Source: a virus. From it: 30,468 nt of DNA. The notes under the pieces are model-generated. The model made no database searches. It had not been told where the DNA came from and saw only the letters and a program-made list of their open reading frames with translations. Below, piece by piece: positions 1,895 to 30,468 of this stretch; the first letter of the stretch is position 1; the number at the start of each line of letters is the position of its first letter. The stretch lies in the IMG/VR virus record IMGVR_UViG_3300022927_000080, positions 1 to 30,468 of that record; one strand, given 5' to 3'. Made by a program: the position numbers and the translations under genes.

Positions 1895-2202
1895 TGGCAA
1901 CAGAAACGCAATATACATCACGCTCTCCCTATTTTACTACCGCTAAGGTAGATGGATATTTGGAAATCAGAAATGATCGCAAGATACCCAAGTATGCCAG
2001 CGATCGAAAATTTAGGATAACAGCAAAATATCAATATCGTCCAGACATGCTGGCGAATGATCTGTATGACGACCCACAGTTATGGTGGGTGTTCGCACAG
2101 CGTAACCCAAACACGATACAAGATCCTATATATGATTTCGTAGTAGGCAAGACGATATACCTACCTACATTAGACACGCTAAAGAAAGCACTGGGCTTTT
2201 AA
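1894..2202 (+). CDS. 53: Baseplate wedge protein gp53
   Basis: A 102-residue protein of the gp53 family, which joins baseplate wedges in T4. The hallmark stretch is YQYRPDMLANDLYDDPQLWW, then FAQRNPN, DPIYDFV and VGKTIYLP near the C-terminus, a LysM-like end typical of the family. T4 gp53 is about twice as long, so this is the short marine form. The frame is open from a GTG at 1888, but ATG at 1894 is preferred. It makes a TAATG overlap with the upstream stop and places AGAGG (1880-1884) 9 nt upstream, whereas the GTG would have only 3 nt. The overlap suggests translational coupling to the gp48-like gene. Confidence 0.88.
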   Translation: MATETQYTSRSPYFTTAKVDGYLEIRNDRKIPKYASDRKFRITAKYQYRPDMLANDLYDDPQLWWVFAQRNPNTIQDPIYDFVVGKTIYLPTLDTLKKALGF

Positions 2203-2205
2203 TAA

Positions 2206-4974
2206 ATGGCTACTAGTCAAGAAATCAATGCCATCAAGACACTGGCGCAGATCAATGTTGATCGATCTAAGGAGTTAGTCACACAGAGTGATGATCTCAC
2301 AGAACCTTATTTCATAGGACTTAACAAGAATAAAAGTCCCAAGTCAGATCAAGTGGTGTTTGCCAAACAACAATCAGCAGTAGAACTTCAGATACAGTCT
2401 AACGAACAGAGTATATTAGACATTCAGCAAGTTGTTACCGACGGCAGTGCTAACTATCAAGTGCTAAACCTTAGACAACAGAACAGAGATCTAGCAGAAG
2501 CCAAAGACAAGATTGAGGATGCTAGATCATTGGCTGGCGACGACACTATAACAAGTCAATTTAGTATTGGTGAGGTCATTGATGAGGAAAAAGAAGCCCG
2601 CAAAGAAAACGCAACAGTACAGACACCTCCTATAGAGAATGTACCTACAGCAAATACTCCTGTTACCAGCAACGCAAATGAGACTATTGCTGATAACGAT
2701 GGCAACGATATTAATTTCCAAACATCAGATGATCAGGGAGCGATCAGCAACGATAATGCTTCAGGGTCTACAGGACAAGGAACCAGTACTGGTGATCGAA
2801 CATCAGATGATGTTGATATGGGACAAACAGTGTCAACAGCGGAAAAAGGCATAACAATACCAGACAATTATACTAAACCATTTGATGCTCAGCCTAACGT
2901 ACTAAGAGAATTAGGGCATTATACCTATCAGATATCAATATATCTACAGAGCAAAGATGAATATGTACAGTTAGTCTCATCAAAAGAAAAAATACCAACA
3001 GGGGATCTCATAATACAAAGTGGCGGAATATCCTTAGACGAAAGAGTTGAAGAGTTTAAAGATTATGATTACTACATTGATGACCTAGAGATAGAGTCTC
3101 TAATGCCACAAGAAGTGGGCGGAGCAACTAATGCGACTAGCCTATCATTTAAAATAACAGAGCCATATGGTTTTACTTTCCTCTCAGCACTAAAGAAGGC
3201 CGCACTGCGTAAGATGGACGGCGAAAGCAGTGATTTCCTTAAACAACACTATCTTATGGTAATTAGATTCTTTGGAGAGGATGACGACGTTCAACAGGCA
3301 GGGGGAACAACAGCAGGAGGTTCAGCTACTCCAGCTACATTAGTAGAAAAATTTATTCCTTTTAGAATAAACAAGATAACCTCAAAGGCTACAACTGGTG
3401 CTGTTGAATATAACGTAGAAGGACTATCAGCCAATCATAATGAGGGCTTTGGCCAGAAGAGAGCCGCGATACCCTTCCAGGTTGAGATCAAAGGCCAAAC
3501 ACTAAATGATCTGTTTAATGGCACAGACGATACTAGAGAGATAACAACTGTGAATGCCGCAACAGGTGGCAGAGAGAACCAACCGGCGGTGTTGACACAA
3601 CCAGCAGGGGTTAATACAACCAGCAAGACTTCCATCAGTACAGGATTAGTTACAGCAATGAATAACAGAATGAAAAAACTTGCTGATGAAGGCAAGATAG
3701 GAATTGCTGACAAATATAAAGTAACATTTGATATTCCCTCAGGTATGGCATCAGCAAGGATTAAACCACCAGGCACGGTTAAAAAAGAAAAAACAGCGAT
3801 GTCAGATCCAGGACTTGGAGCCAGCGTATATCTATCATCCCGAGGTCAGGTAGACGGTGAAACATTTTTGATTAGCGCCAATGCTGGTCAACAGTTTCAG
3901 CAGTTCATTGATACCGTAACCAGGACTAGCACTTATATTACAGATCAACAGACATTTCATCTTGATCCAAATACTGGAGACCCTAAACAAAATGAAAAGA
4001 GTAATGAGGTCATGGCATGGTTCCGTATTGGAGTCAACACTAAACCTATAGGGTGGGACGAGATAAGAAACGATTGGGCATACGAAATTGAATATGTTGT
4101 AGTACCATCTCAGGTCAGTGATCTTAAGAGTGAATTCTTCCCCAAATCTAAGTTTTACGGAGTACACAAGAAATATAATTATTGGTTTACAGGAGAAAAC
4201 ACAGAAGTATTGAGTTATGAGGTTGACTACAATGCTCTATATTACATAGGTATAGGACAGGAAGTTCCTAAGTTGCCCACAGACAGTGCTAACAAGGATG
4301 ATCAACATGCTAAGGTTGTAGAACCACCCACAGCAAGTTCAGGAGGTGTTGATGCTAAATCATCAGAACCTGCGGCCAGAGGTGCTAGTGTACTGTATTC
4401 ACCTACAGACTATGCTCAACTGCGTATGGAAATATATGGTGACCCAGCCTACATCGTACAGAATGATGTGTTCTATGGATTGGGAGAATATAACGACAGA
4501 TTTCTACCTGACGGAACTATCAACATGGATGGCTTTGAGACATTGGTAGAAATTAATTGGAACACCATTGAAGACTACAATGATGAGACTGGTACAGTTG
4601 AAATCAAAGCAATAGAGAAGAAATCTACCAAACAGAGAGACATCACAGGCACCGACGGTATGATATACTGTCTTACAAAAGTAACAAATAAATTTAATAA
4701 TGGCCAATTCACTCAAGAGGTAAACGGAATTATGCGTGAGTTCCAAGAATCAGGTGTGGCTAATAGTACCAAAGAAACCAATGGGGATAATGTAGGTAGA
4801 GATGAAACATTATCAATAAGATCTCCGGTAGTCAATGTAGTAGGACGTTCTTCATCAGCTTCTACTCCTAGACTAGGAACAACTAGTTCTGGACCAACAA
4901 GGGTAACTCCGGTTCTAGGTGGATTGACCTTATCAGGTGCGACTTTCCAAGCACCAGATGATGATGCGAGTTAA
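2206..4974 (+). CDS. Large baseplate hub-like structural protein, possibly with gp27-type role
   Basis: I cannot assign this 922-residue protein to a named T4 gene with certainty. Residues about 65-120 look like coiled coil (QSNEQSILDIQQ and LRQQNRDLAEAKDKIEDA). Residues about 145-215 are a low-complexity linker rich in N, D, S, T and G. A folded region starts near residue 220 and includes YQISIYLQSKDEYVQLV, ITEPYGFTFLSALKKAA, FIPFRINKI and a KYNYWFTGENTEVLSYEVDY block near residue 655. The C-terminal tail repeats the VTPxLGGLxLxGAT peptide of the gp48-like protein. It lies directly before the gp5-like spike gene, where a hub subunit is expected, and no separate gp27 gene is visible. A gp27-like role binding the spike is therefore a reasonable inference, not a demonstrated homology. 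It starts 3 nt after the gp53 stop with no clear ribosome-binding site. Confidence 0.6.
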   Translation: MATSQEINAIKTLAQINVDRSKELVTQSDDLTEPYFIGLNKNKSPKSDQVVFAKQQSAVELQIQSNEQSILDIQQVVTDGSANYQVLNLRQQNRDLAEAKDKIEDARSLAGDDTITSQFSIGEVIDEEKEARKENATVQTPPIENVPTANTPVTSNANETIADNDGNDINFQTSDDQGAISNDNASGSTGQGTSTGDRTSDDVDMGQTVSTAEKGITIPDNYTKPFDAQPNVLRELGHYTYQISIYLQSKDEYVQLVSSKEKIPTGDLIIQSGGISLDERVEEFKDYDYYIDDLEIESLMPQEVGGATNATSLSFKITEPYGFTFLSALKKAALRKMDGESSDFLKQHYLMVIRFFGEDDDVQQAGGTTAGGSATPATLVEKFIPFRINKITSKATTGAVEYNVEGLSANHNEGFGQKRAAIPFQVEIKGQTLNDLFNGTDDTREITTVNAATGGRENQPAVLTQPAGVNTTSKTSISTGLVTAMNNRMKKLADEGKIGIADKYKVTFDIPSGMASARIKPPGTVKKEKTAMSDPGLGASVYLSSRGQVDGETFLISANAGQQFQQFIDTVTRTSTYITDQQTFHLDPNTGDPKQNEKSNEVMAWFRIGVNTKPIGWDEIRNDWAYEIEYVVVPSQVSDLKSEFFPKSKFYGVHKKYNYWFTGENTEVLSYEVDYNALYYIGIGQEVPKLPTDSANKDDQHAKVVEPPTASSGGVDAKSSEPAARGASVLYSPTDYAQLRMEIYGDPAYIVQNDVFYGLGEYNDRFLPDGTINMDGFETLVEINWNTIEDYNDETGTVEIKAIEKKSTKQRDITGTDGMIYCLTKVTNKFNNGQFTQEVNGIMREFQESGVANSTKETNGDNVGRDETLSIRSPVVNVVGRSSSASTPRLGTTSSGPTRVTPVLGGLTLSGATFQAPDDDAS
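4903..4944 (+). repeat. Shared peptide motif, copy 2 (VTPVLGGLTLSGAT)
   Basis: Residues 900-913, ending 9 residues before the C-terminus of the 922-aa protein. It is the counterpart of residues 35-48 of the gp48-like protein (935-976). Confidence 0.7.
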
Positions 4975-4982: not shown

Positions 4983-7226
4983 ATGGCAGAAAATATACAA
5001 AGAAATATAGGGCGAGGAAAGGCCTACAAATACGATAAAGAGGGAGTACCCTCGGAGTTTGGGCCGTTTATAGGAACGGTCAAGAACAACGTAGATCCTA
5101 CAAGGAAAGGCAGGCTTCAAGTCTATATAGAACAATTTGGTGGCGAAAATCCAAATGACGAAAGCAACTGGAGAACCGTCAACTACGCATCTCCCTTCTA
5201 TGGTGACATAGGCAGGATGGATGAAAGTATGCGTAACAGTGTAGATGGCACGGGCGAGTTCGTTGGCAACAAGCACACCTATGGCATGTGGTTCACACCA
5301 CCAGACATAGGCACAAGAGTTATTTGTATATTCATAGGTGGCAGTCCGGACGAAGGTTACTACATAGCCTGTGTTCCAACCAGAGGATTGGGTCACATGT
5401 TACCAGCGATTGGAGCATCGACCAAGTATGTACAAAATTCATCAACTTCAAAATACCTAGCAGGCGCTAGTCAAGTACCAGTAACAGAGATCAATGACAT
5501 GAATAACTCGGTCATTGAGAATCCAAGATATTATGATCAAGCTAAACCAGTACATGAAGTGTTGGCGTATGAATTGTTTCAACAGGGGCTGATAACTGAC
5601 ACAACTCGTGGACCCATAACGAGTTCCAGCCATAGAGAATCGCCTAGCAAGGTGTTTGGTCTCAGTACTCCGGGCCTTCCTATATATGAGGGAGGGATGT
5701 CTGAAACCACTATTAAGACACAGTTAGAAAAGGGAGAGATCACTTCTGATCAGATCAAGGTAGTTGGCCGACGTGGTGGGCACAGCGTTGTCTTAGACGA
5801 TGGTGACATATCAGGTAAAGACCAAGTTATTAGAATTAGAACTGCCAAAGGTCACCAAATCACAATGAGTGATGACGGTGATTCATTCTATATCATACAT
5901 GCTAACGGACAGACATGGCTCGAGCTCGGCAAGGAAGGTACTGTAGATGTATTTTCCACAAACTCTGTCAATGTGAGGACACAAGGCAGTATCAACCTAC
6001 ATGCTGACAAGGAAATTAATATGTCAGCAGGCACCAAGATCAATATGTATGGTAAGCAAGAAATAAATTTAGAATCGTTGACATTAAATCAACGAGGAGA
6101 CACAGATATCAAGTTATACAGCAAGTCTAGGATATCAGCTAGGTCTGATGGTGTCATCGCACTTCAGGCAGACAAGACAACCAGTATTAAGGCAGGTGAT
6201 TCTGTTCCAATTGAAGCAGGATGTATAAATCTTAACGGAGGCGGTGGTTTACCAGCAACACCAGTTAAAACCATACGTAAAAATAAACTACCTGACACTA
6301 AATTTAATGATCAAACAGGTTGGCAAGTTGAAACCGGCACGTTAGAAACCATTACAAGCAGAGCACCAACACACGAACCTTATCCATATCACGGACTAGG
6401 AATAGAAAATTCAGCAGATCTAGGAGCAGAAACAGTTTCGTCAGCACCCGCTAAAACACAGGCTAAAATTGAGCAGGCACTGGCCAAGACACCTGACGGA
6501 ATAGGACTGGACCAATATACAGCACAGGCCAAAGCAACTAAAGGCATAGGTACTTTAAATGTTGACCAGACCACAGGAATAATGGCACAGTTAGGCAAAG
6601 AGACCAATCAACGCTTTGACGAATTTTCTATAGAAAACGGTCTAGGTAAGTTTGGACTCAGTCCAACGCAGTTAGAAGAAACAGGTTATCTCAAACCAGG
6701 AACAACAGCAAACTTCTTATCAGACCCATCAAGAACATCAACTGACGCATTTGGTCGGACTAAAACTGACTTTGAAAAAGTGCTGTCAAACACCAATGTC
6801 TGGACCAACAAAGGAGGAGCAGAAAATCTCACAACATTCCTCAATTCACAGAGTACACAGGATAGAGTAATACAAGATGTGTATTCAAATGACCTTAGCA
6901 AATTAAAAGCTAATGGAGTCCTTAAAGGAACTGAATCGCCAGAGGATATTGCCGGTATTCTTAATGCTAGTGCCAGGTACGGTAATGACAAGGTGATAGC
7001 GTGGACTAACAACAGTCAGGATATCTCCCAATCATTGTCAAACGACATGAGCCAAACTTTGAGAAATGCTCAATACTCAACAAAATTCGTTGACACTAAG
7101 ATAACACCTGATCTCAGTGGCTTTAGTTCACCCGGCGGGTATGCTAATACGACACAGAGAAGCGGTATTGACAGTGCCGCCGAGGCATTTAGCAGTAGCG
7201 GCAAGGTTCCGTACCCTAAATTTTAA
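4983..7226 (+). CDS. 5: Central baseplate spike, gp5-like, with a non-T4 C-terminal domain
   Basis: A 747-residue spike protein. Residues about 25-135 form the gp5/VgrG-type OB domain (GPFIGTVKNNVDPTRKGRLQ, then MWFTPPDIGTRVICIFIGG and GYYIACV). Residues about 265-421 look like the triple-stranded beta-helix needle: short alternating strands such as VDVFSTNSVNVRTQGSINL, INMSAGTKINMYGKQEINLE and TSIKAGDSV. The T4 lysozyme domain that normally sits between these parts is absent. Instead, after a linker with RAPTHEPYPYHGLG near residue 459, residues about 506-680 form an extra domain with GKFGLSPTQLEETGYLKPGT and ESPEDIAGILNASARYG. This could be a distant transglycosylase-like muralytic domain, with E540 (GKETN) as a candidate catalytic glutamate; that is tentative. 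Marine T4-like gp5 proteins often carry such a tail, as I remember. The protein would trimerise under the hub and pierce the outer membrane. Confidence 0.85.
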   Translation: MAENIQRNIGRGKAYKYDKEGVPSEFGPFIGTVKNNVDPTRKGRLQVYIEQFGGENPNDESNWRTVNYASPFYGDIGRMDESMRNSVDGTGEFVGNKHTYGMWFTPPDIGTRVICIFIGGSPDEGYYIACVPTRGLGHMLPAIGASTKYVQNSSTSKYLAGASQVPVTEINDMNNSVIENPRYYDQAKPVHEVLAYELFQQGLITDTTRGPITSSSHRESPSKVFGLSTPGLPIYEGGMSETTIKTQLEKGEITSDQIKVVGRRGGHSVVLDDGDISGKDQVIRIRTAKGHQITMSDDGDSFYIIHANGQTWLELGKEGTVDVFSTNSVNVRTQGSINLHADKEINMSAGTKINMYGKQEINLESLTLNQRGDTDIKLYSKSRISARSDGVIALQADKTTSIKAGDSVPIEAGCINLNGGGGLPATPVKTIRKNKLPDTKFNDQTGWQVETGTLETITSRAPTHEPYPYHGLGIENSADLGAETVSSAPAKTQAKIEQALAKTPDGIGLDQYTAQAKATKGIGTLNVDQTTGIMAQLGKETNQRFDEFSIENGLGKFGLSPTQLEETGYLKPGTTANFLSDPSRTSTDAFGRTKTDFEKVLSNTNVWTNKGGAENLTTFLNSQSTQDRVIQDVYSNDLSKLKANGVLKGTESPEDIAGILNASARYGNDKVIAWTNNSQDISQSLSNDMSQTLRNAQYSTKFVDTKITPDLSGFSSPGGYANTTQRSGIDSAAEAFSSSGKVPYPKF

Positions 7227-7241: not shown

Positions 7242-7616
7242 ATGGCTACTTATATTGGATTCAATACTATAGGAAAGAAGAGAAAGTTTACTCTCACGGA
7301 TTATGATCTCGTGGTGCGTGACGTTCTCAATAGTCTATTGATTAGGAAAGGCGAGAAGTTAGGACGTCCAGATTACGGAACAGATTTATGGGGTCTAATA
7401 TTTGAGCCATTAACTGACCAAGTACTTAAACAGTTACAACAGGAACTAAGAGAGACCATCCAACAAGACCCTCGTGTTAGATTTGAAGACGCACAGGCGT
7501 ATACTCAGCCTAATGGCATTCTAGTGGAACTATTCATAACAGTTCTTCCAACATCAGAACAACAACGACTAAGTTTGTTTTTTAACAAAGACGAACAGAC
7601 ACTACAACTAATATAA
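7242..7616 (+). CDS. 25: Baseplate wedge protein gp25
   Basis: A 124-residue protein, close to T4 gp25 (132 aa) and to the gp25/GpW-like family found in contractile injection systems. Recognisable parts are DLVVRDVLNSLLIRKGEK, then GRPDYGTDLWGLIFEPLTD (the family's GxPxxGTxLxxLLFEP-type signature) and LQQELRETIQQDPRVRFED. gp25 clamps to gp6 in the wedge and helps to start sheath assembly. The gene stands alone between two short gaps, each with a GATAAATA box, and is followed by gp6 as in T4. The start is ATG at 7242; no Shine-Dalgarno sequence precedes it. Nothing is truncated. Confidence 0.95.
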   Translation: MATYIGFNTIGKKRKFTLTDYDLVVRDVLNSLLIRKGEKLGRPDYGTDLWGLIFEPLTDQVLKQLQQELRETIQQDPRVRFEDAQAYTQPNGILVELFITVLPTSEQQRLSLFFNKDEQTLQLI

Positions 7617-7685: not shown

Positions 7686-10600
7686 ATGGCTAAGACTACA
7701 AGACAAACAGCAATATTTGGTGCGGAGGATTGGAAGAAGTTATACCAAACATTCCGTGAAGCAGACCTTCAGAGCTACGACTATGAGACCTTAAGAAAGT
7801 CAATGGTTGACTATCTCAGATTGTACTACCCTGAGACATTCAATGACTATGTGGAGTCATCAGAATTCGTAGCATTATTAGATCTCATAGCATTTATGGG
7901 ACAGGGCCTGTCGTTCCGTAGTGACCTAAATACCAGAGAAAACTTCCTTAGCACTGCCGAACGTAGAGATTCAGTAGTCAAGTTAGCAGAGCTTGTTGGA
8001 TATACACCCAAACGTAACACCAACTCAGAGGGGTATCTAAAGGTAACCAGTGTCACAACTACCGAAAGCGTAATAGATTATAATGGTTTTAATCTATCCG
8101 GACTAACAGTTAATTGGAATGATCCAACAAACGTTGATTGGTATGAGCAATTTGTTTCAATAATGAATGCGGCATTTGTCTCTGGACAACGTGTAGGTCG
8201 ATCAGCCAACCAACAAGAAATATTAGGTATCACAACAGACGAATATGAATTTAACGTAGCGGCCGGATATCTACCAGTGATACCATTCCAACAAGAAGTA
8301 GATGGTAGAAGCATGGCATTTGAAGTAGTGTCGGCAACATCGGTAAACAAAACATTCATATATGAACCAGCACCACAGACGAACGGTCAGATGAACGTGC
8401 TGTATCGCAACGACAAACTAGGGTTTGGCAGTGCTAAAACTGGTTTCTTCTTTTACTTTAAACAAGGTTCATTGATCAGCCAGGACTTTACTGTACAGGA
8501 AAGGATAGCCAATAGGTCTGTAGATATTGACTTAGATGGAGTTAATAATAACGACGTCTGGCTTTTTGAAGTAGAGAATGAAGGACGAAGCCTAACTGAA
8601 TGGAACAAGGTAGACAACATCTTTGGAGTGGGAGCGACACCAAGCACGAACAACCAATTAAGACGTGTGTTCTCTGTCAAGTCTAGAGGCAACGACCAAA
8701 TTAGTTTAGTATTCGGAGACGGAGTTTTTGCTAAACAACCAGTAGGAACATTTAGAACGTTTCTACGTTCGTCAAACGGACTAGAATATGTCATAGACCA
8801 ATCAGATCTACAGAACGTACAGATATCATTGCCTTATGTCAGCAAGAACGGACGTAACGAAACATTATCATTTACATTAAGTCTAGAGACAACAATCACA
8901 AATGCCAAGTTTAGAGAGAACTTGAACGAGATCAAAACCAGAGCACCTTCAAGTTACTACACACAGAACAGGATGGTCAATGGTGAGGATTATAATAATT
9001 TTCCATACACACAATTTACTTCGATATTAAAATCAAAGGCAGTAGGAAGATCAAGTATTGGTCTGTCAAGATATCTTGATTTGTTAGATCCTACAGGGAA
9101 ATATTCCAGCACAAACACATTCTGTTCAGATGGTATGATATATAGAAATTATGAGGATCCTAATTTTACATTTACATTTGTTGACAACAATGATATTTCA
9201 AACGTATTAGTAAATCAATTAGAGCCAGTGCTATCATCTAGGGCATTTACACACTTCTATCATGACAAGTTTGTAAGACCAAGCCTAACCAGTATTGACA
9301 TATTATGGCAACAAGCAACATCAACAACAAACCAGTCAACTGGATACTTTAAAAATAGTTTAGAGAACACCGTTCCTGTTGGTGGTACAGTTTCAAACAA
9401 TGCTAAATTTATTGATCAGGGAAGTTTAATTAAATTTGAGCCACCAACAGGATATTTCTTTGACAGTAACAATAGATTAAAAGCAGGCACACCAAGTGGA
9501 GCGAACGAAAAATTGGTCTTATGGTCAACAATCTCAGCGTTAACACTGGACGGTACTAATTTTGGTAACGGTAATCTAAGTGACGGATCCGGACCGGTAA
9601 CATTGAATCAATTTGTTCCAACAGGAGCCATACCCACAGAAGTCATTGCCAAATTGGTCACTGATTTGCCGTCAGCATTTGAAACATCAATGATCGAACA
9701 GGTTGAGCTATATAGAGATTTTGGCATAGGTTACGACAACGCAACATCATCATGGTATTTAATAACAGCTGACAACCTTGACAAGGATGCCGCTTGGTCA
9801 TCATCATTTGCTAAGAATATTGACAGATTACAGCGTGACGCAAGTTGGTTAGTTCAGTTTACCACAGATGGTGAGACATACACTGTAAAATATAGAAATC
9901 TAAACTATTATTTTGCGAGTGTACAGGAAAATAGATTCATATATGATACGAAAGATAAGATATTTGATCCTAAGACAGGCAAAACTGTTAATGATCTTGT
10001 TAATGTATTAAAAATGAACAGCAAACCTGATGTAAGTTCCAATCTTACCACAGATCTTAAATTAGATATCATTGGTCAGGAAGTGGAGACAGATGGTTTT
10101 ATTGACAATTTTAAAGTGTTGGTCAGTTACGCAGACAGCGACAGCGACGGAGTGGCAGACGATCCGGATGTCTTCAAACAAATTGTTGCGCCAACGGTGA
10201 ATGCTTCATCTAAAGTGATCTTCTTAGAGAAAACAACAGACTTTGACAATTTAGAAAGATACTTACCGGTAGCATCGGGTGTGATCAACACACTCTATGC
10301 TGATTTAGATGCTATAGAACTAGCAAAGACAGAATATCTAAACGGTCAGGTGTTTTATGGTACCACAGATAAGAAATTTTACAAGTTAACAGTGGTTGGA
10401 ACCACATATACATTGGCAATAACAACAGATTATATCTATAGGACCGGAAGACAGGACCTTTATTTCCAATACAAACACAATTCAAGTAACAACAAGAGAG
10501 TGGATCCAGGTATAACCAACATTATTGACATGTTCCTTGTGACAAATTCATACTACACAGCGTATCAGAATTGGATCAAAGACATCACTAATAGTGTTAC

Positions 10601-11090
10601 AGAACCTGCTGTACCAACCATAGATGAATTATCAATTAGTTACAGTACCTTGAATCAGTATAAGATGTTAAGTGATAATATGATTCTAAATTCAGTCACT
10701 TTCAAACCTCTTTTTGGTAGCAAGGCGGCGACAGAGTTACAGGGTAAGATCAAAGTCATTAGATACTCAGACACAGTGACATCGATCAGTGAGATTAAAG
10801 CACGTACAGTTGAAGCACTCAACGAATACTTTACTATAGAGAATTGGGATTTTGGAGATACATTTTATTTCTCTGAATTAAGTGCGTATCTACATGAGCA
10901 GTTGGGAGACATAGTGTCATCTGTGGTACTAGTCCCTAATGACCCTGAGAAGAGCTTTGGTGATCTATATGAAATTAGGTCAGCACCAAATGAGATATTT
11001 GTTAATGCGGCAACGGTCAATGACATTGAGGTTGTAGACGCACTGACACCTAGCGTATTAAGAACAGCATCAAATAGTGGGATTGTTTAA
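7686..11090 (+). CDS. 6: Baseplate wedge protein gp6 (baseplate J family), enlarged
   Basis: A 1134-residue gp6, much longer than T4 gp6 (660 aa). gp6 dimers form the continuous ring that holds the wedges together. The N-terminal part has YDYETLRKSMVDYLRLYYPE, EFVALLDLIAFMGQGLSFRS, NTRENFLSTAERRDSVVKLA and LVGYTPKRN (about residues 30-115), the conserved gp6 start. The baseplate J-like core includes LVFGDGVFAKQPVGTFRTFL near residues 340-360. The extra length lies in the C-terminal half. At about residues 816-827 DSDSDGVADDPD has the spacing of a DxDxDGxxDxxD calcium-binding loop. The C-terminus (AAFNEYF-like region ALNEYFTIENWDFGDTFYFS, then ELSAYLHEQLGDIVSSVVL) is the part that in T4 gp6 contacts neighbouring subunits. 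It starts at ATG with AGAGAG 5 nt upstream. The stop overlaps the next start as TAATG. Confidence 0.92.
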   Translation: MAKTTRQTAIFGAEDWKKLYQTFREADLQSYDYETLRKSMVDYLRLYYPETFNDYVESSEFVALLDLIAFMGQGLSFRSDLNTRENFLSTAERRDSVVKLAELVGYTPKRNTNSEGYLKVTSVTTTESVIDYNGFNLSGLTVNWNDPTNVDWYEQFVSIMNAAFVSGQRVGRSANQQEILGITTDEYEFNVAAGYLPVIPFQQEVDGRSMAFEVVSATSVNKTFIYEPAPQTNGQMNVLYRNDKLGFGSAKTGFFFYFKQGSLISQDFTVQERIANRSVDIDLDGVNNNDVWLFEVENEGRSLTEWNKVDNIFGVGATPSTNNQLRRVFSVKSRGNDQISLVFGDGVFAKQPVGTFRTFLRSSNGLEYVIDQSDLQNVQISLPYVSKNGRNETLSFTLSLETTITNAKFRENLNEIKTRAPSSYYTQNRMVNGEDYNNFPYTQFTSILKSKAVGRSSIGLSRYLDLLDPTGKYSSTNTFCSDGMIYRNYEDPNFTFTFVDNNDISNVLVNQLEPVLSSRAFTHFYHDKFVRPSLTSIDILWQQATSTTNQSTGYFKNSLENTVPVGGTVSNNAKFIDQGSLIKFEPPTGYFFDSNNRLKAGTPSGANEKLVLWSTISALTLDGTNFGNGNLSDGSGPVTLNQFVPTGAIPTEVIAKLVTDLPSAFETSMIEQVELYRDFGIGYDNATSSWYLITADNLDKDAAWSSSFAKNIDRLQRDASWLVQFTTDGETYTVKYRNLNYYFASVQENRFIYDTKDKIFDPKTGKTVNDLVNVLKMNSKPDVSSNLTTDLKLDIIGQEVETDGFIDNFKVLVSYADSDSDGVADDPDVFKQIVAPTVNASSKVIFLEKTTDFDNLERYLPVASGVINTLYADLDAIELAKTEYLNGQVFYGTTDKKFYKLTVVGTTYTLAITTDYIYRTGRQDLYFQYKHNSSNNKRVDPGITNIIDMFLVTNSYYTAYQNWIKDITNSVTEPAVPTIDELSISYSTLNQYKMLSDNMILNSVTFKPLFGSKAATELQGKIKVIRYSDTVTSISEIKARTVEALNEYFTIENWDFGDTFYFSELSAYLHEQLGDIVSSVVLVPNDPEKSFGDLYEIRSAPNEIFVNAATVNDIEVVDALTPSVLRTASNSGIV

Positions 11091-17000: not shown

Positions 17001-20000
17001 ACAAGCAGAGTTATAAGATACAGTCAACACCAATATTGCCACAGCGTTACTCGGTACCATCAGAACTTAACTTACCTACATCAGGATATGTTAATGTTGA
17101 CGACATTGATATACAATTATTTGACATACTTGACCTAGGATCATTGACTCCTTATATATCTCAGATAGGAGAAAGTACAACCATATGGGTAGCCAAAGAT
17201 AACTCATGGGATTGGAACGTTTATAGATCAGGAATAATAATACCTACACTGTCCAGAATAACTGACAACTTAGACGGAACATCTACATTACTGTTTAACG
17301 GAAACCATGGTCTACAGAAAGATGATATTATTATTGTAAAATGGGGACTTGATGGCGATGTCTTACTAGACAGTGCCTTTAGGATAGTGGACGTACAATC
17401 ACTGAATAGAGTATCAATACAACTAACCTTGCCAGATGAAATAACCTTTTTGACATTAGAAAGTCTAACATACAAGTTAAATTCAGTCAGGGTAGCTCAA
17501 GGCAGTGACGTAGTAAATCTACCGTTTGCCAATGACATTGATCCAGGTAGCAAGGTATGGATTGACAATAACGGAAACGATCGTTGGCAGGTACTTGAGA
17601 AGATTGACCCATTTACACAGGAAAGTAGTTTAGAACCAGCAAGAAACTTCCTCAATGGCCTCACTGACCAAAACTTAGTTAATATTGATTTTGGTACATC
17701 AGTAGCACAAAACGCAGAAAGCCTAACAGCATTTGTAGGTGCTCCGGGCTACAACAGTAGTAAGGGTGGCTTGTTCACATACGTCAAAACATCAGATGAT
17801 GTCATGGTACAGAATAGCATATTAACAGGAAGTGGTACAACAGCGTTAGACAACTACGGCAATGATGTGGCATGTGCCAATGAGACATGGAGTATAGCAG
17901 GAGCCTCAACATCAAACAACGGCGAGGGTTATGCCTACGTACTCAAACAATTAAATTCAAACTTAATAAGTGAACATCAATTATTGGTAAATCCAAGCGA
18001 TGCCAATGATGAGGCTGAGTTTGGTCATGCTGTTGCGATATCAGACAATGGAAGATGGGCATACGTAAGTGCGCCAGGTAAAGACTCAGTCTATGTGTTT
18101 CAACGCATTGACAGACAGTTACAGAGATTTGAAACGAAAGGTGACGGATCAACAACACAATATACTCTAAAAGGTTTAATGCTAGTAGATGAACCTAATC
18201 AGATAGCAGTTGTTGTTAATAATGTAGAATTAACAGCAGGCGTTGACTACACTTTAACATCAACAGTGTCATCAACAGGCGTGTTGACATTAAACACTGC
18301 TCCTGAGGACGGTAAAGACGTAGCAGTTACTAGGAGAGAAAGCCTGACATTTGAAGGCGATGCTTCAACTACAGCGTTTGACATCACAGGATTGTATACA
18401 GCCGACGGAGAGTACAGCCTCACAGTCGTAGTAGACGGTGTGTTACAGAGATTAAACATTGATTACGACTACGCACATGATTCTTCAGATGTCTTTGAAT
18501 TTGCGACTGCTCCAGCCGACGGTGCGAGCATAGTTGTTCGTTCAAGTGACTACTTTGAATACGTTACAGCCATTGTGGGTACCAAAGGTGAAGAATTTGG
18601 TTATAGTTTAGCAACAACAACAGATGGCAGGCAGTTGGTTGTTGGTGCGAGGACAGCAAATAAAGCCTATATCTATGACAGAGATGTTGAAAGACAAGTA
18701 GTTACAGATGACACTGACAAGACCTACGTGTCAGACAAGAGCCCTGTTGGGCGGGCAGTGGTATCTGTTAATGGAACTATATTACAAGATTCAGAAAAAT
18801 ATATCGGCGGTGAATACACAATATCAGGTAATACAGTTACACTAGCAACAGCACCTGGCCTAGGTGACTTTGTTGAAATAGAAACTAACAACTTCTTATT
18901 AGTAGATACCATTGAGATGACCAACGGATATCAAGCGGCACAGTTTGGCCATAAGGTAACTATATGCCCAACGAACTGTTCGGTATATGTAAGTGCTCCT
19001 GATGATGGAAACGTATTACCGAGTGCGGGTAGCGTACAACGTTCTGTAAACCAATCAAGACTATACGGAACCATAACTGGCACTGTGTCAAACCCAACGG
19101 TGACAGTAGGTGAGAAGATTAGAATTAATAATGTTGTTGTAACATTTACAGGCACCACATTGGATCAAGTAGTTACAGACATCAACAACGCAACGATACC
19201 AAATGTTAAGGCAGTGAACTCCAATGGTAAACTAGCAATATCGTTAACGAATGTTAATGCTGGCGCGGTGGCTAACAAGTTATACGTGTATCCAGCAGGT
19301 AACAACAACGATGCCTTAACAGATCTAGGGCTTGACATTTTCAAATATCTACAGACAATCACATCGCCATATCCTGTACAGAATGCTCGATTTGGTGAAA
19401 GCATGTCAGTTAGTTCAGATGCGTTAACCTTGGTGGTAGGAACCAGCAAAGGTGCTAGTAACCTAGCAACAACATTTGACAGCAACACTATGAAAATTGA
19501 CGGTGGTTCAACTAGAATAAGAGATATTAGAACACAGAGCGGTAGTGTGTACACATTTGATTATCTATCATCAGCTAGTGACAGCGTATCAAATCCAGGT
19601 AATCTAGTGTTTGGTCAACAGATAGTTGACAACAAGGTTGAAGAATTAGTTGAATTTGGTAAAGCAGTTGACTACAAGGCCGGAAGGTTATTAATAACAT
19701 CACCAGGTCACGTTGCTGGTGATGATTCGAGTGTGGTCGGACGTTTGGTCATCTATAACAACACAGACAGGGAATTTGCCTGGAGAACTATTAGAGAAGA
19801 GAGTCAGGTAGTTGACATAGATCTATTAAACAGATCATTCATCTATGATAAGACGACACTAGACAACAAAGTAGACGTTGACTTCTTTGATCCGTTACAG
19901 GGCAAACTTTTGGGAGCCGTTAGAGAAAATTTAGATTATCTAACACCAGTTGATCCAGCAGGGTATAATGTAGGAACAGTGAATAATTATGGACAGACCT

Positions 20001-23000
20001 GGAGAGACGAGCATGTTGGTGAGATATGGTGGAACACAACGAATGCTAGATTCATTAATCATTATCAAGGACAACCTGAATATAGAGCCAAGAGATGGGG
20101 ACAACTATTCACTGGATCCAGTATTGATGTTTACCAATGGATAGAGAGCACTGAGACACCAGAAAACTATACAGGTACTGGCACGGTATATAGCACCACA
20201 TCATATACAACCAAAACACAGATAGGAGCCAATGGTGTCGTAGAAACACTCTATTACTACTGGGTTAAAGAGATACCAGCAGTGTCAACAGGTAAGACTT
20301 TAAGCTCAGCGGTGTTAGCACAATACATTGAAGATCCTAGATCCAGCGGCATAGCATACATAACTCCAATTGATTCTAGCACTATTGCTTTATACAACGT
20401 TGGACAATATTTGTCAGCAAAAGACAGTGTATTACATATTGAATTTGACAGAATAAAGACAGACAACAATGTACACGTTGAATATGAACTGATCAAAATA
20501 GGTGATGCAGATCAGTTCCTAAATGATCAACTATACAGAAAATTACTTGACAGTTTTGCTGGTGTTGACACAGCAGGCAACAAAGTTCCTGACACTGCCC
20601 TGTCAGAAGCCGACGCTTATGGTGTTGATTTTAGACCAAGACAATCAATGTTTAAGGACAGATATACTGCCCTTAGAAACTATCTAACAAGAGCTAATAG
20701 AAAATTAGCATTACATCCTATTAGCGAGAGCAAATCATTTAACTTACTCAACAGCAAGGAAAATGAACCAGCGGCTACGTCATACGACAAACGATTATTA
20801 ACAAATGAAGAACTAACATATCAAAACCTAGCACTAGTACCAGTAGGCTACAAATACCTAGTGGCTAACGACAGCTCACAGAATAACTTATGGACATTAT
20901 ATGAAGTACAGAGCAACAGGGCACTGTTGTTAACACGTGTTCAGAACTTTAAGACATCTAGATATTGGACATACACAGATTGGTATGCTACTGGATATTC
21001 AGCAGAAGATAAACCTATAAACGAAGTTTCAACGTATTCAAGATTAGCAACAATTAGCAGTAAGACGGAAGTAGGACAGGTCGTAAAGGTAACGACGAAT
21101 AGTAACGGTAAGTTTGAATTATATTCTAAAACTAACTCAGGGTGGGACAGAGTAGCTCTCGAAGACGGAACTATTACAATAGATACGTCAATATATGATT
21201 ACACCTTAGGACGCAATGGATTTGACATTGAGGTATTTGACGCACAATATTTTGACGAGGAGCCAGTTACAGAGACAAGACAGATTATCAAGGCAATCAA
21301 TGAGGAACTGTTCGTTGCTGATCTAGCAAAAGAACGCATAGACCTCATTAACTTGATATTTGAATATGCTAAGAGTGAACACACTGCGGCTGACTGGTTG
21401 ATCAAAACATCTCTCATTGACGTTAATCATAACTTACGTGAGCTTGAACCGTTCAGCATCTATCAAGTTGATAATCAAGATTTTATAGAAAAATATATTC
21501 AAGAGATTAAACCTTATCATGTACAGGTTAAAGAATTTTCGTTGACATACAAGGGAGAGGATCTCTTTGGTGGTGATGCTACTGACTTTGACTTACCGTC
21601 TTTCTATGAGGAATCATCAAACAAATTTATTAGTCCGAAATTAGCGGACAGCGGAGTAGTAGGAGATTTTGTTTCAACAGACAGCATCTGGACTACTTGG
21701 CCGTATAATCAATGGATCACAAATTATACACTAAGCATCGATTCGGTTACCGTACTTACTGGCGGTAGTGGTTACACAGAAGTTCCGACGGTAACAGTAT
21801 CAGGCACTTGTACAACTCCAGCTACAATGATAGCAAGAATTAACACAGCCGGAGTGGTTATAGCTATAGATGTAATAACATCAGGGGTTGGGTATACAAC
21901 CACTCCAATAGTTACTATAAGTGGCGGTAATGGTACTGGAGCAACGGCGATCGCAGTAACATCTCCAGGTACAGTTCGTGACATAAAAACAACATTACGA
22001 TATGACCGTTACGAATATCAGTCTGAGATAGTTGATTGGGAAGCCAATACAGCATACGAAGCAGGCACACTGGTTAGATACAATAACAAGGTATACGAAG
22101 CCAAGAACGAAGACGACAGCACGTTAGCAGTCACAGGCGCATCATTTAACACTGATGACTTTACAGTAGTGGATCCAAGCACACTTAGTGGTGTGAATAG
22201 GACTATGGGCTTATACGTTCCAGCAGTCAACAACACTGGGTTAGACTTAGGCTTATTAGTATCCGGCACTGAATATCCAGGAGTACAAGTTACAGGTGTG
22301 CTATACAATCAGAACACAGGATATGACATTGGTAACTTTGACATCAATCCGTTCGACAACTTAGACTTTGGTGAGGAAGGATTACCTAGTTATTCTGAGA
22401 CACTTTTAGACACCAAATACAATCCTGGTGACTATGCTGATACATATCTAGGTACACAGGTAACAGACATTAATGTGGAAGGTGGTGAGTTCATAGACAC
22501 ATACAGTTCACATTCACCGGAAGAACTTGTTCCAGCATCAATTTTTGACACATTAAACATGAAGGTGTTTACACGTCCGGGCTATGACTACGAAAATGAC
22601 GGACACGGACAACCATTTGGATCATTCACATGGAAGTATGACGGCACTGCTGATACCACAACTGTAAGTTGGGATCTAATAGAGAATCCATTTGCTGTTA
22701 GGGTGTTCAACGTAACTACCGGATTAACATTACGCTTTGAATACTTCGCACCATATGAGGGCACTGTTGACTACTCAGCAAACTGGCTGAACAAGACAGT
22801 GACACTGACAGGTACAGGAGTCTCAGTGGGAGACATCCTACGTGTTGAATCATACGGCATAGGTGGCGGCGATCAACTTTGGGTAGACAACTACTCAGTG
22901 GCAGACTTATTAGTTGATGATTCAACAGACGGTCTGTTCATAGACATTCCTGTAGCGTTTGAACAGATATACGAAGCGATGATTAAAGTCAACGGATATC

Positions 23001-25240: not shown

Positions 25241-26593
25241 ATGGCTTACACTATTAACCAAACAGATGGAACCATATTTGCCACAGTCGCAGACGGTACC
25301 ATCAATACTGACAGCTCATTGACGCTGGTTGGTAAGAACTATGCCGGTTACGGCGAGTTCCTAAATGAGAACGTTCTCAAGTTACTTGAGAGTGGTGCTA
25401 ATACAACAGCGCCAGGCGCACCGCTAACAGGCCAATTATGGTTTGACAAAACAGCTGGTGTATTAAAAGTTTATAACGGAACACTATTTAAAAACTTAGG
25501 TAGTGCTACAAGTTCTACTTCAGCACCAACATCAGTGGTAGCAGGTGACCTATGGTTTGACTCAACAAACGCACAATTAAAAGTATATGACGGTTCAGCA
25601 TTTATATTAGTTGGTCCTTCATTTACAGCAGGCACAGGCACATCAGGCGCTATTGTTGACACTGTAGAAGATAACGTAGCAGTTGACCACGTTGTTGTTA
25701 AATTGTTCGTTGAGGACGATGTTGTAGCTACAGTATCTAAAGACGCAACGTTCACACCAGGCTCAGCCATCACTGGTTTTGCAACGATTGGTCCAGGCGT
25801 ACAGTTAAGCTCATCAGTTTCAAACGCTGTGTTTAAAGGCTCAGCAACAAACGCACAATTATTAGATAACCTAGACTCAACAGACTTCCTAAGTGCTATC
25901 GCAAACGATACAACATCGGGCACACTAGGCGTGTTAAATGACACAGGTCTTGCAGTTGGTGTTGACAGTGACTTCAGAGTAAGCGTATCCGGCTCAGACG
26001 TTACCATCCAAAACCAAACTTCAGACGGTGATATCTCAATTAAAGTAAATGACGGTGGTTCAACAACAACTGTTGTTAACTTTGATGGTGCTACATCATC
26101 AATGAATCCTGGTGCTAACGCAAGTATCGACTTAGGTACTGTGGCATTACAATATAACAATGTTTACGCTGTCAACTTTAACGGTACAGCATCTGCCGCT
26201 GAATATTCTGACTTGGCTGAACGCTTTGAGACAGATACAGCATATCCAGCAGGTACAGTAGTTGAGTTAGGCGGAGAGAAAGAAATCACAATGGCGCAGA
26301 CAGAGTTAAGTGACGCAGTATTTGGTGTTATATCATCCAAAGCGGCATACTTAATGAACTCAGGCGCAGGTAGTAATGAAACACATCCACCAATTGCTAT
26401 GAACGGGAGAGTTCCTGTGAGAGTGGTTGGTACTGTGAGGAAAGGCGACAGGCTAGTATCAGCAGGTGGTGGATTAGCAAGAGTAGCTACAAAAGAAGAG
26501 CTAACACCATTTAATGTGATAGGCAGAGCGTTAGAAGCAAAAACAACCAGTGAAGAAGGTACTGTCTTAGCAGTAGTTACCGTATCTCACTAA
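25241..26593 (+). CDS. Tail-fibre-like structural protein with WFD repeats and autoprotease-like C-terminal domain
   Basis: A 450-residue virion protein. Residues 63-87 and 101-125 are two tandem copies of a fibre motif (GQLWFDKTAGVLKVYNG and GDLWFDSTNAQLKVYDG). The middle is serine-, threonine- and valine-rich and beta-predicted by eye, ending in LGTVALQYNNVYAVNFNGTA. The C-terminal domain (about 321-450) starts YSDLAERFETDTAYPAGTVV and continues with VFGVISSKAAYLMN, NGRVPVRVVGTVRKGDRLV and NVIGRALEAK. It resembles the C-terminal domain of many marine-phage fibre proteins, related as I understand it to the peptidase G2 / IMC autocleavage class that trims and releases trimers. The cleavage residues cannot be assigned from sequence alone. 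A doubled late promoter and a good ribosome-binding site (CGGAG, 8-nt spacer) precede it. Codon choice is richer in GTT, GGC and GCA than in the giant gene, which suggests high expression. Confidence 0.75.
   Translation: MAYTINQTDGTIFATVADGTINTDSSLTLVGKNYAGYGEFLNENVLKLLESGANTTAPGAPLTGQLWFDKTAGVLKVYNGTLFKNLGSATSSTSAPTSVVAGDLWFDSTNAQLKVYDGSAFILVGPSFTAGTGTSGAIVDTVEDNVAVDHVVVKLFVEDDVVATVSKDATFTPGSAITGFATIGPGVQLSSSVSNAVFKGSATNAQLLDNLDSTDFLSAIANDTTSGTLGVLNDTGLAVGVDSDFRVSVSGSDVTIQNQTSDGDISIKVNDGGSTTTVVNFDGATSSMNPGANASIDLGTVALQYNNVYAVNFNGTASAAEYSDLAERFETDTAYPAGTVVELGGEKEITMAQTELSDAVFGVISSKAAYLMNSGAGSNETHPPIAMNGRVPVRVVGTVRKGDRLVSAGGGLARVATKEELTPFNVIGRALEAKTTSEEGTVLAVVTVSH
25427..25615 (+). repeat. Two tandem WFD fibre repeats
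   Basis: Residues 63-87 and 101-125 of the 450-aa protein share G-[QD]-L-W-F-D-x-T-x-x-x-L-K-V-Y-[ND]-G. This repeat is frequent in phage tail fibres. Confidence 0.75.
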
Positions 26594-27705: not shown

Positions 27706-28005
27706 ATGGATAATATAACACAAAAGATCAGAGCTCGCTTCGATCATGAAGCGGCCAAGCAAACGCTTCTCGAAAAATACGAGGCTAAACTGCTATTCGC
27801 ACATCAGGGCGGTATGTTCCGTGCCGGGCCTGAACTTATAGTCTTATTAAATTCATATGACACAGGCGAAATGGTCATACTGGATGAATTTAAAAATCCC
27901 ACAAAAGTCACTAGACTTGCCCTATTAGATGAGGCCAAGCAACGTTATCAAGAACAGTTAAATGCTTGGATGGTTGAACTAGCAGAACAATCGAGACAGC
28001 GATGA
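27706..28005 (+). CDS. Small conserved protein of unknown function
   Basis: A 99-residue, largely helical and charged protein. It has an N-terminal helix (IRARFDHEAAKQTLLEKYEA), a central strand region GGMFRAGPELIVLLNSYD and MVILDEFKNPTKVTR, and a C-terminal amphipathic helix (EAKQRYQEQLNAWMVELAEQ). It has no cysteines, signal peptide or membrane segment. I recall similar small proteins beside tail-fibre genes of marine T4-like phages. A role as an assembly factor or chaperone is possible but unsupported. The stop overlaps the next start as ATGA, so it is coupled to the first glycosyltransferase-like gene. The start ATG is only 5 nt after a TATAAT and has AGGG too close to serve as a normal ribosome-binding site, so initiation may be leaderless. 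Confidence 0.7.
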   Translation: MDNITQKIRARFDHEAAKQTLLEKYEAKLLFAHQGGMFRAGPELIVLLNSYDTGEMVILDEFKNPTKVTRLALLDEAKQRYQEQLNAWMVELAEQSRQR

Positions 28006-28772
28006 GTCAGGGAGTGTTGCTCTACGCATTCAACAATGGCACCACGGACTATCTCTCCATGGCCAAATGGAGCGCCAAACGTATTGAGAGATTCCTAGGT
28101 CTTCCTACAACAATTATATCTGATTCAGATGAGGCAGAATATGGAGGTGTTAGAATATTTAATGCTACCAAGGGTGGGGAGAAATGGTACAACGCTAGTC
28201 GCAATCGGGCATGGGACCATAGTCCCTATGATCAGACACTGGTCCTAGATGTAGACTATGTAGTTAATTCAGACCTATTGGGCTTGTTGTTTGAGATAGA
28301 TAAACCATTCATGATACACAGGTACGCATTGGATGTGACCAATAGGGCTCATTTTGTGGCTCTGGATAACTTTGGAGATCATCAGTTTCCCAGCACCTGG
28401 GCCACTGTGATGTACTTCAACAGGAACCCCGAAGGCAAGTATATATTTGATCTAGTGGAAATGATCAAAAAGAACTGGCAACACTATGCTAACCTGTACA
28501 AGTTTAAATCAAACACGTTTCGCAATGATTGGGCATTCAGTATAGCTATGGGCATAATAGGCGGACATAAAGAACCGCAGTACTATCATATCCCATGGCC
28601 ATTGGCAACAGTGGGCACAGACGTTGATATAGAACAAGGAGAGCATGATGACATGTTCGTGCTAAAGTATACAGCATACCTACAACAAAAGGCAGTGGTT
28701 CAGAACATACGTGGCTTGGACCTACACGTTATGAACAAAGAGGAAATGGAGGCGATCTGTGCAAGCAGTTAA
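28002..28772 (+). CDS. Glycosyltransferase-like protein (GT-A type, DxD present), first paralogue
   Basis: A 256-residue protein with the layout of a small GT-A enzyme. It opens with a strand (GVLLYAFNNG) and a helix with LSMAKWSAKRI, then PTTIISDSD. The sequence SPYDQTLVLDVDYVVN at residues 74-89 carries D83-V84-D85, the usual metal- and nucleotide-sugar-binding DxD. Later blocks are FRNDWAFSIAMGIIGG (about 174-190) and YYHIPWPLA. The substrate cannot be read from sequence. The gene overlaps the 99-aa gene by 4 nt and the next gene by 14 nt, and its neighbour is a visible paralogue. Modification of a fibre protein or of host surface glycans is inference from its position after the fibre genes. 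Confidence 0.7.
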   Translation: MSQGVLLYAFNNGTTDYLSMAKWSAKRIERFLGLPTTIISDSDEAEYGGVRIFNATKGGEKWYNASRNRAWDHSPYDQTLVLDVDYVVNSDLLGLLFEIDKPFMIHRYALDVTNRAHFVALDNFGDHQFPSTWATVMYFNRNPEGKYIFDLVEMIKKNWQHYANLYKFKSNTFRNDWAFSIAMGIIGGHKEPQYYHIPWPLATVGTDVDIEQGEHDDMFVLKYTAYLQQKAVVQNIRGLDLHVMNKEEMEAICASS

Positions 28773-29550
28773 GGCAGAACGGGGATACTTGATAGTGGCA
28801 CAGGGCGACATATACCACCCGTGTGCTAGAGCATTAGCAAAGTCAATAAAATATTTCATACCCAAATCTCAGGTAGCAGTTGTGGGTAACTGTAAGGACG
28901 CAATATTTGACTATGAGATAGAGCTACCCCATGGTGATCAAGGTGGACTTAAGAATGATTGGCAAATATTTGAAGCCTCACCTTTCCGTCAAACTATCAA
29001 ACTAGAAGCAGACATGGTCCTAAATGGTTCAATAGAGCATTGGTGGGCCATGGTAGAAAAGCGTGATGTGTTCGTGGCACAGGGCACCAGAAACTTTTAC
29101 GGACACAAGACCACGGATAGAACTTATAGACGTCATCTGGATGATAACAAGTTACCTGATGTTTACAATGCCATAACATACTGGAGACGATCAGAACTGG
29201 CCGCTAAGTTCTTCGTGACCTGTAGAGAGATATTTGATAATTGGGATCAAGTCAAACTGCGTAACTGGAATCAACCCGAGCCAGACACTGACACAGTATA
29301 CGCACTGGCGACAGTGTTATTGGGCAGGGAGAACTTCCTACTGCCAAGCACATATCCACAGTTCGCACACATGAAGGGCAAGATAAACTTCTGCCATGGT
29401 GAGGACTGGACCAAGGAACTGGTATGGGAGTTGACTGATCGTGGACTTCGCATACAGACCATACAACAACAGATACCAACACACTATCACATCAAATCAT
29501 TTGCTACCACATTAGAGGAACACTATGAGCAACTTCTGGCAGGTAATTAA
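28759..29550 (+). CDS. Glycosyltransferase-like protein with altered DxD (EAD), second paralogue
   Basis: A 263-residue protein. Residues 74-90 read SPFRQTIKLEADMVLNG and align position for position with SPYDQTLVLDVDYVVNS at 74-90 of the preceding protein, so the two are tandem paralogues. The first aspartate of the DxD is replaced by glutamate (E83-A84-D85), which could keep, change or abolish activity. Other blocks are GYLIVAQGDIYHPCARALAK at the N-terminus, VVGNC, and a C-terminal part with NFCHGEDWTKEL and IPTHYHIKSF. The start is GTG at 28759, chosen because GGAGG lies 6 nt upstream at 28748-28752. It overlaps the previous gene by 14 nt and the next by 26 nt, so the operon is translationally compact. 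Function is inferred only from the fold-like motif. Confidence 0.65.
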   Translation: MQAVKAERGYLIVAQGDIYHPCARALAKSIKYFIPKSQVAVVGNCKDAIFDYEIELPHGDQGGLKNDWQIFEASPFRQTIKLEADMVLNGSIEHWWAMVEKRDVFVAQGTRNFYGHKTTDRTYRRHLDDNKLPDVYNAITYWRRSELAAKFFVTCREIFDNWDQVKLRNWNQPEPDTDTVYALATVLLGRENFLLPSTYPQFAHMKGKINFCHGEDWTKELVWELTDRGLRIQTIQQQIPTHYHIKSFATTLEEHYEQLLAGN

Positions 29551-29848
29551 AGATCACAAAGGTGTCAAACCTAAAACAAAATACGAGTACAGACTCTATT
29601 ACAATGAGGATGGCAGTGTTAGATGTTACAGCTCGGAAGAGTTGGATGGTGATTACATAGTAGTTGATCAGTCAACGTTCGCACAGAATCGATATGATGT
29701 GTTAGTAGAAGATGGCAAGATAGTTAACCCACACAAGATTAAACAGTACAGGAAATTAGTGCCAGACATTGTAGGAACAGAAACACTAGAAGATGACATT
29801 ACATTGATTGGAAAAGGAAGACATTGGAAGGTAAAATATTATGATTGA
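29525..29848 (+). CDS. Conserved protein of unknown function between glycosyltransferase-like genes
   Basis: A 107-residue protein with no domain I can name. It is rich in tyrosine, lysine and aspartate, with alternating strands: YEYRLYYNEDGSVRCYSSEE, GDYIVVDQSTF, YDVLVEDGKIVNP and a C-terminal GKGRHWKVKYYD. It looks like a small all-beta protein. It has no signal peptide or membrane segment. The ATG at 29525 is preceded by AGAGGA with a suitable spacer and lies 26 nt inside the upstream gene. Its stop overlaps the next start by 8 nt. Placement between two glycosyltransferase-like genes hints at a shared role, but this is inference. Confidence 0.7.
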   Translation: MSNFWQVIKDHKGVKPKTKYEYRLYYNEDGSVRCYSSEELDGDYIVVDQSTFAQNRYDVLVEDGKIVNPHKIKQYRKLVPDIVGTETLEDDITLIGKGRHWKVKYYD

Positions 29849-30468
29849 TGTAGCAGACTTAGATGTAGTTTACCTTAGTTACGATGAACCCCAAAAGGAG
29901 GAGTTCTGGGTAAAGATTAAAAACATGGTTCCCTGGGCAACTCGTGTTGATGGTGTTAAAGGTTCTGATGCCGCACACAAGGCCGCGGCTGATGCCAGCA
30001 CCACAGATAGGTTCATCCTGATAGATGGCGATAACATGCCAGACCCAGACTTCTTTAACTTAACATTTGATCTAAAAGATGAACAATATGAACAGGCAAC
30101 ATTCCGTTGGAGAGCTCGTAATCATATCAATGGATTAATGTATGGTAACGGTGGACTTAGTTCATGGACTAAAGACTTTGTTTATAATATGAAGACACAT
30201 GAAAACTCACAAGGAGATGATGAAACTAATGTGGAGTTTTGTTTTGATCCCTTATACTGGGCCATGCACGATTGCTACAGTGTTACATATCCTAATGCCA
30301 CACCCTTCCAAGCATGGCGAGCAGGCTTCCGTGAAGGTGTCAAGATGTGTTTAGATCGAGGACACAAACCAACTATAAATGAATTTAAAGATAGAGCTCA
30401 TGCTCGTAACTTGGATAATCTCAACATATGGCATACAGTAGGCAGAGATGTTGAGAATGGTATATGGG
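29841..30468 (+). CDS. Third glycosyltransferase-like protein (partial, 3' end beyond window)
   Basis: The frame is open from ATG at 29841 to the window edge, 209 codons. GGAAGG (29826-29831) lies 9 nt upstream. The N-terminus VVYLSYDEPQKEEFWVKIK leads into VPWATRVDGVKG, then HKAAADASTTDRFILIDGDN, with D62-G63-D64 as a DxD followed by MPDPDFF. This is the order seen in GT-A-fold sugar transferases, where the helix before the DxD strand positions the donor. Downstream are TFRWRARNHINGLMYGNGG and PFQAWRAGFREGVKMCLDRG. It is not closely similar to the two upstream paralogues outside the DxD region. It shares the operon by an 8-nt overlap. The C-terminus is not visible, so length and any extra domain are unknown. 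Confidence 0.65.
   Translation, partial: MIDVADLDVVYLSYDEPQKEEFWVKIKNMVPWATRVDGVKGSDAAHKAAADASTTDRFILIDGDNMPDPDFFNLTFDLKDEQYEQATFRWRARNHINGLMYGNGGLSSWTKDFVYNMKTHENSQGDDETNVEFCFDPLYWAMHDCYSVTYPNATPFQAWRAGFREGVKMCLDRGHKPTINEFKDRAHARNLDNLNIWHTVGRDVENGIW

Follow-up and report, generated by a model that had tools for sequence, protein, structure and literature searches.

The alpha chains of integrins carry a propeller of seven FG-GAP blades, into which, in integrin alpha M, an I domain is inserted. Among phages, the closest described precedent that we found is the nozzle protein of SU10, whose seven-blade propeller has Ig-like domains inserted after blade 2, before blade 3, and docks a fibre through blade 1 (PMC9509320). 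A beta-propeller on a baseplate is found in the receptor-binding protein of Staphylococcus aureus phage 80alpha (PMC7048315). In coliphage phAPEC6 a 382 kDa protein, gp245, is listed beside the baseplate wedge protein gp244 and was detected in virions (PMC7247149). In the literature searched, the coverage of which was incomplete, we found no description of an FG-GAP propeller in a phage baseplate, nor of a wedge protein that combines an integrin-type propeller cassette with variable inserted modules.

Here we analyse such a cassette in an uncultivated-virus fragment of 30,468 bases (the window, i.e. the whole stretch of DNA that was analysed). Its modelled propeller shares the seven-FG-GAP-blade fold of integrin alpha M (PDB 9t3y) and alpha 4 (3v4v), with Z scores of 38-39 and 2.7-2.9 Å over about 350 residues, at about 18 % identity. 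The integrin calcium motif DxDxDGxxD does not occur in the window and was matched once each in 7 of 142 relatives; we therefore class the fold as integrin-like and not as an integrin. Nor would a phage virion protein be expected to pair with an integrin beta subunit. Unlike the integrin domain, this propeller is embedded in a phage wedge protein, and its inserts lie in the hairpins between strands 3 and 4 of blades 3-5, whereas the integrin insert lies between blades 2 and 3. By sequence, the propeller belongs with the Pfam FG-GAP_2 repeat proteins, from which it differs in the domains inserted into blades 3, 4 and 5 and in the long loop of blade 6. The nozzle propellers of SU10 and T7, which are likened to it by description and not by direct structure comparison, belong to short-tailed phages and line the channel. 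In contrast to SU10, units 2 and 3 of the window are only 55 residues apart and have no insert between them. The 80alpha propeller, in turn, has five blades and forms a separate trimeric protein outside any wedge protein, whereas that of the window has seven and lies within one.

The giant open reading frame and its family

The window carries a T4-like tail gene cluster from a jumbo phage (Table 1), with tail fibre genes 3' of the giant open reading frame (ORF) that encodes the propeller. A separate gene at 25241-26593 probably encodes a tail fibre protein, which ends in a Peptidase_G2-like autoproteolytic chaperone domain. The consecutive ORFs at 28002-30467 resemble glycosyltransferase-type proteins by eye; one of them falls in a PHROG of unknown function, and the last has a Pfam match below threshold only.

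Table 1. Features of the window, with residues numbered along the giant ORF; each blade begins at the first residue of its F/Y-G unit.
Feature	Residues	Position	Strand	Basis
Late sigma factor		3-707	-	
gp53-type wedge protein		1888-2202		
gp5-like hub protein		4983-7226		
gp25-like baseplate wedge protein		7242..7616	+	Pfam GPW_gp25 8.6e-8; PHROGs
gp6-like baseplate wedge protein		7686..11090	+	phrog_10646 9.5e-283, phrog_219
Giant baseplate wedge ORF	4475 aa	11090..24517	+	PHROG 10938 'virion structural protein' family; directly downstream of gp6
Left host strand KVWIDNNGNDRWQVLEK	2155-2171	17552..17602	+	Empty-site alignment; recognisable in propeller-less PA5oct too
Seven-blade FG-GAP propeller cassette with inserts (predicted)	2172-2896	17603..19777	+	AlphaFold2; integrin matches; Pfam
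N-terminal strand, expected outer 'Velcro' strand of blade 7	2176-2181	17615..17632	+	DSSP; aligned from integrin residue 1 onward
Blade 1	2201-2245	17690..17824	+	F/Y-G unit; model
Blade 2	2256-2300	17855..17989	+	Pfam; F/Y-G unit; model
Blade 3, strands 1-3	2311-2340	18020..18109	+	Pfam; F/Y-G unit; model; distant-clade profile
Beta-sandwich 1	2343-2411	18116..18322	+	Phage_T7_tail and DUF2460 matches; hhalign; most divergent module by rate table
Beta-sandwich 2, homologous to sandwich 1	2412-2487	18323..18550	+	Pfam; hhalign
Blade 3, strand 4	2488-2496	18551..18577	+	DSSP
Blade 4, strands 1-3	2503-2537	18596..18700	+	Pfam; F/Y-G unit; model; distant-clade profile
Beta-sandwich 3	2538-2599	18701..18886	+	Model; hhalign to sandwich 1, 88 %
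Blade 4, strand 4	about 2600-2609	18887..18916	+	DSSP
Blade 5, strands 1-3	2619-2654	18944..19051	+	F/Y-G unit; model
Flagellin-IN-like segment	2655-2750	19052..19339	+	Pfam Flagellin_IN in five relatives; model
Blade 5, strand 4	2751-2757	19340..19360	+	DSSP
Blade 6	2768-2845	19391..19624	+	F/Y-G unit; model; distant-clade profile
Blade 6 low-confidence loop between strands 2 and 3	32 residues	19445-19540	+	Model
Blade 7, strands 1-3	2856-2890	19655..19759	+	F/Y-G unit; model
Right host strand AWRTIREESQVVD	2897-2909	19778..19816	+	Empty-site alignment; short loop to left strand in propeller-less relatives

The giant ORF matches PHROG 10938 (1049 bits), a family of virion structural proteins of RaK2-like jumbo phages, and its N-terminal block is homologous to 57 phage records (tblastn). 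Homology to the members of this family in RaK2, 121Q, GAP32, PA5oct and Atu_ph07 extends over residues 1-2050 and 2900-3500 of the window's ORF, and the gene order after gp6 is the same, but in these phages the gene has a short loop instead of a propeller. In the window and six relatives (L008, L009 and L012-L015), the giant gene is immediately preceded by a gp6-type wedge gene. The homologue in Pseudomonas phage PA5oct is recorded as a virion protein detected by mass spectrometry; from its size and position, phAPEC6 gp245 is probably also a member of the family.

In the first-pass annotation the ORF was called a baseplate wedge protein, an assignment that is supported by its place downstream of gp25 and gp6, and by its homology to jumbo-phage virion proteins. 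The assignment rests on gene order and family. A single T4 gp7 sequence gave no match to the family profiles in hhalign, gene position alone being in agreement, and profile searches with the conserved blocks flanking the propeller found no relative among PDB sequences.

Further along the ORF (residues about 3540-3675; 21700-22110 of the window) are GxGYTxxPTVTI-type repeats, followed by CBM_5_12-like segments. Such repeats are also found in part of a stretch of ~1500 residues in Sinorhizobium phage Phosso and Agrobacterium phage Atu_ph07, before the site of the window's propeller.

Fold of the propeller and position of its inserts

Seven units that begin with F/Y-G and have VGAP-like second strands follow one another in order. 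The G of the unit is invariant across 38 relatives, bar one row that ends before unit 7. Pfam FG-GAP_2 (PF14312) matches the propeller region at 4.8e-15, and also matches 37 of the 38 relatives. Single units of the window are weak, Pfam picking out blades 2, 3 and 4; a profile trained solely on a distant clade found blades 3, 4 and 6 at 12.6-14.1 bits, compared with a maximum of 5.7 bits in 500 shuffles.

AlphaFold2 modelling of the propeller region with the 38 relatives gave a pLDDT of 84.1 and a pTM of 0.86. The best Foldseek matches to this model are integrin alpha chains, and the best 50 PDB matches found with a second structural aligner were all integrin alpha propellers, the top one being integrin alpha M (Z 39.1, 2.7 Å over 350 residues, model residues 24-752). 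Residues 2172-2896 are thus predicted to fold as a closed seven-blade FG-GAP beta-propeller of the integrin alpha type, and we regard this propeller as real. When the PDB was searched with a sequence profile of the propeller, 15 of 16 matches were integrin alpha chains but all were below threshold (E 0.02-0.45), so that the argument for the fold is carried by the structural comparison. A second prediction, extended with the flanks, was of moderate confidence (pLDDT 72.6, pTM 0.60), and its flank geometry was left unused.

The seven-blade FG-GAP-like propeller that had been read from the sequence therefore withstood both checks proposed with it, a structure prediction and FG-GAP profile matches to at least four of the seven units: the model has high confidence and matches seven-blade integrin alpha propellers from end to end, and four units are recovered by independent profiles, compared with all seven in the model. 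Its limits, placed at 17711-19765, are corrected to 17603-19777.

The secondary structure of the model places extra domains between strands 3 and 4, two of them in blade 3 and one each in blades 4 and 5. Two beta-sandwiches, one further sandwich and a flagellin-IN-like segment had been proposed in the first-pass annotation as lying between blades. Their identity stands, given the fold pattern, a Phage_T7_tail match to sandwiches 1 and 2 together (5.3e-9; the family of the T7 tail-fibre N-terminal domain) and Pfam Flagellin_IN matches to the fourth insert in five relatives, although not in the window itself. Their location does not, for they lie inside blades 3, 4 and 5, in the strand 3-4 hairpins. 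The three sandwiches are mutually related (hhalign probabilities of 98, 88 and 79 %), and in the relative L003 an additional sandwich is found within the flagellin-IN-like insert. The giant ORF has weaker copies of the sandwich module at residues 1056-1111 and 4132-4168, a recurrence in keeping with a structural building block.

Insertion site and distribution of the cassette

In PA5oct, Phosso, Atu_ph07 and SCTP-2, a strand matching the WQVLEK strand of the window is followed, after about 4-10 residues, by one that matches the WRTIREE strand, whereas 725 residues separate the two in the window. The empty-site alignment is less sharp for RaK2, GAP32 and one Vibrio phage. Relative to these phages, the whole propeller is an inserted cassette, absent from their homologues. 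No match to FG-GAP_2 was found in the whole genomes of RaK2, 121Q, GAP32, PA5oct, SCTP-2, Vibrio phage 2.275.O and T4. When 50,697 phage records were searched by tblastn with the propeller regions of the window and two relatives, nothing was returned, and thus there is no detectable copy of the propeller in the cultivated phages of that collection.

Scans of viral contigs with the block that follows the propeller revealed at least 576 stretches encoding a relative, 80 of which were kept. Among the listed relatives with full upstream sequence, 70 of 77 have seven units, 6 have six and 1 has eight, the extra match in the latter being marginal (2.7 bits); unit matches occur nowhere else in the upstream sequence of these 77. 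Exactly seven units were also counted in 127 of 142 other propeller regions, which derive from overlapping contigs and include some from the training set of the profile; shuffled regions gave 1 match in 142. The number and order of units are fixed in nearly all relatives in which the region is complete, and the stretches between them range from about 50 to 290 residues (for example, unit spacing is 184-294 for units 3 to 4 and 142-266 for units 5 to 6). Ten contigs from the propeller clades, the longest of 353 kb, have all their FG-GAP_2 matches within a single ORF (4577-4953 residues).

A sister clade (L030-L034 and others) retains the seven units, and its propeller model matches integrin propellers with a Z score of 37.3. 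Chitin-binding-like modules (Pfam CBM_5_12) are inserted here; according to the model, they separate strand 2 from strand 3 in blades 2 and 4. Since the 3-4 hairpins and the 2-3 hairpins of a propeller usually lie on opposite faces, the two clades would decorate opposite faces of the disc.

Possible roles of the cassette and propellers elsewhere

On balance, we lean towards the cassette being a closed seven-blade propeller inserted in the wedge protein as a rigid platform, which displays modules for docking and has surface contact as a secondary role. Anchored to the wedge at both ends, the propeller would form a rigid disc on the outer part of the baseplate, a location suggested by gene order alone. 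Its blade hairpins would display small modules, namely the three related sandwiches and the flagellin-IN-like domain or, in the sister clade, the chitin-binding-like modules. Fibres or neighbouring baseplate parts might dock on this platform, and the modules may be exchangeable. The platform is supported by the modelled fold in both clades, by the retention of seven units while their spacings vary, by the empty site in relatives, by purifying selection on the blades like that on the wedge core, by the virion homologue in PA5oct, by the sandwich copies elsewhere in the ORF and by the SU10 precedent. Against it, no homologue of the flanking blocks was found among PDB sequences, and the chitin-binding-type modules of the sister clade fit carbohydrate binding equally well.

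The selection estimates come from the window and two close relatives, where dN/dS is about 0.02-0.1 for the blades, as for the wedge core, with dS near saturation and only three close genomes. Sandwich 1 is 62 % identical in the same genome pair in which blades 1-3 are 94 % identical, and its dN/dS is 0.24; this faster divergence might be that of a surface-contact module, which would also speak against the platform. We also considered whether the propeller as a whole evolves rapidly, driven by a receptor; the rates do not support this, but are weak evidence given the saturation and the number of genomes. The purifying selection on all but sandwich 1 speaks against the propeller as the main determinant of host range.

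A less probable reading, although a possible one, is that the propeller and its inserts form a head that contacts the host surface and binds receptors or glycans as integrin heads bind ligands, with specificity set by the inserted modules. The modules do differ between clades and vary in length, those of the sister-clade propeller are CBM_5_12 modules, sandwich 1 is the fastest-changing part, and integrin I domains are likewise inserted in a propeller. However, CBM-like domains are common in phage structural proteins and need not bind sugar. Moreover, the blades and most inserts are conserved as much as the wedge core or more in close relatives, although at larger distance their identity falls somewhat below that of the core (0.39-0.43 for the blades versus 0.47-0.50). 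Together with the separate fibre gene at 25241-26593, the conservation of the blades leads us to favour the structural platform over a main host-range determinant. It seems to us more doubtful still that a family of environmental jumbo phages acquired an integrin-type propeller cassette in the wedge protein and use it as a head of interchangeable modules in contact with host glycans; if true, this would be a functional parallel to integrin heads with inserted I domains.

It is improbable that the propeller is a moving part, whose inserted domains rearrange on contraction and extend the baseplate towards the cell. A precedent exists in SU10, where Ig domains inserted in a seven-blade propeller swing into the nozzle (PMC9509320), but these form one chain at one point between blades, whereas one or two modules are found here inside each of blades 3, 4 and 5. 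Furthermore, the propeller of that short-tailed phage lines the channel, and nothing places the window's propeller there. It is very hard to credit that the seven units were read by chance from the repeats of a long beta-rich protein. Although just three to four of them score singly in the window, the predicted structure contradicts this reading, with a confident model and a Z score of 39 to integrin propellers, as does the count of exactly seven units in most relatives.

A large and widespread group of uncultivated jumbo phages would thus have a baseplate built around an integrin-type propeller, their cultivated relatives being without one in this gene. The presence of a propeller with small extra domains at what is a loop in related phages points to a modular platform at the baseplate. 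The clean insertion site opens the contribution of the propeller, be it to fibre docking, surface contact or assembly, to experiment.

FG-GAP_2 repeats are also found in other genes of two of the cultivated phages. In Phosso (PV764938.1), two adjacent unannotated giant genes on the minus strand (48338-57826 and 57900-68978; about 3160 and 3690 residues) contain dozens of them, apparently as strings of several propellers, and two more matching ORFs of about 400 residues are located at 92370-93980. In Atu_ph07, a gene annotated 'hemagglutinin' (243018-244199), which adjoins a tail sheath gene, matches FG-GAP_2, and a 'Hemagglutinin protein' of this phage is among the structural matches to the window's propeller.
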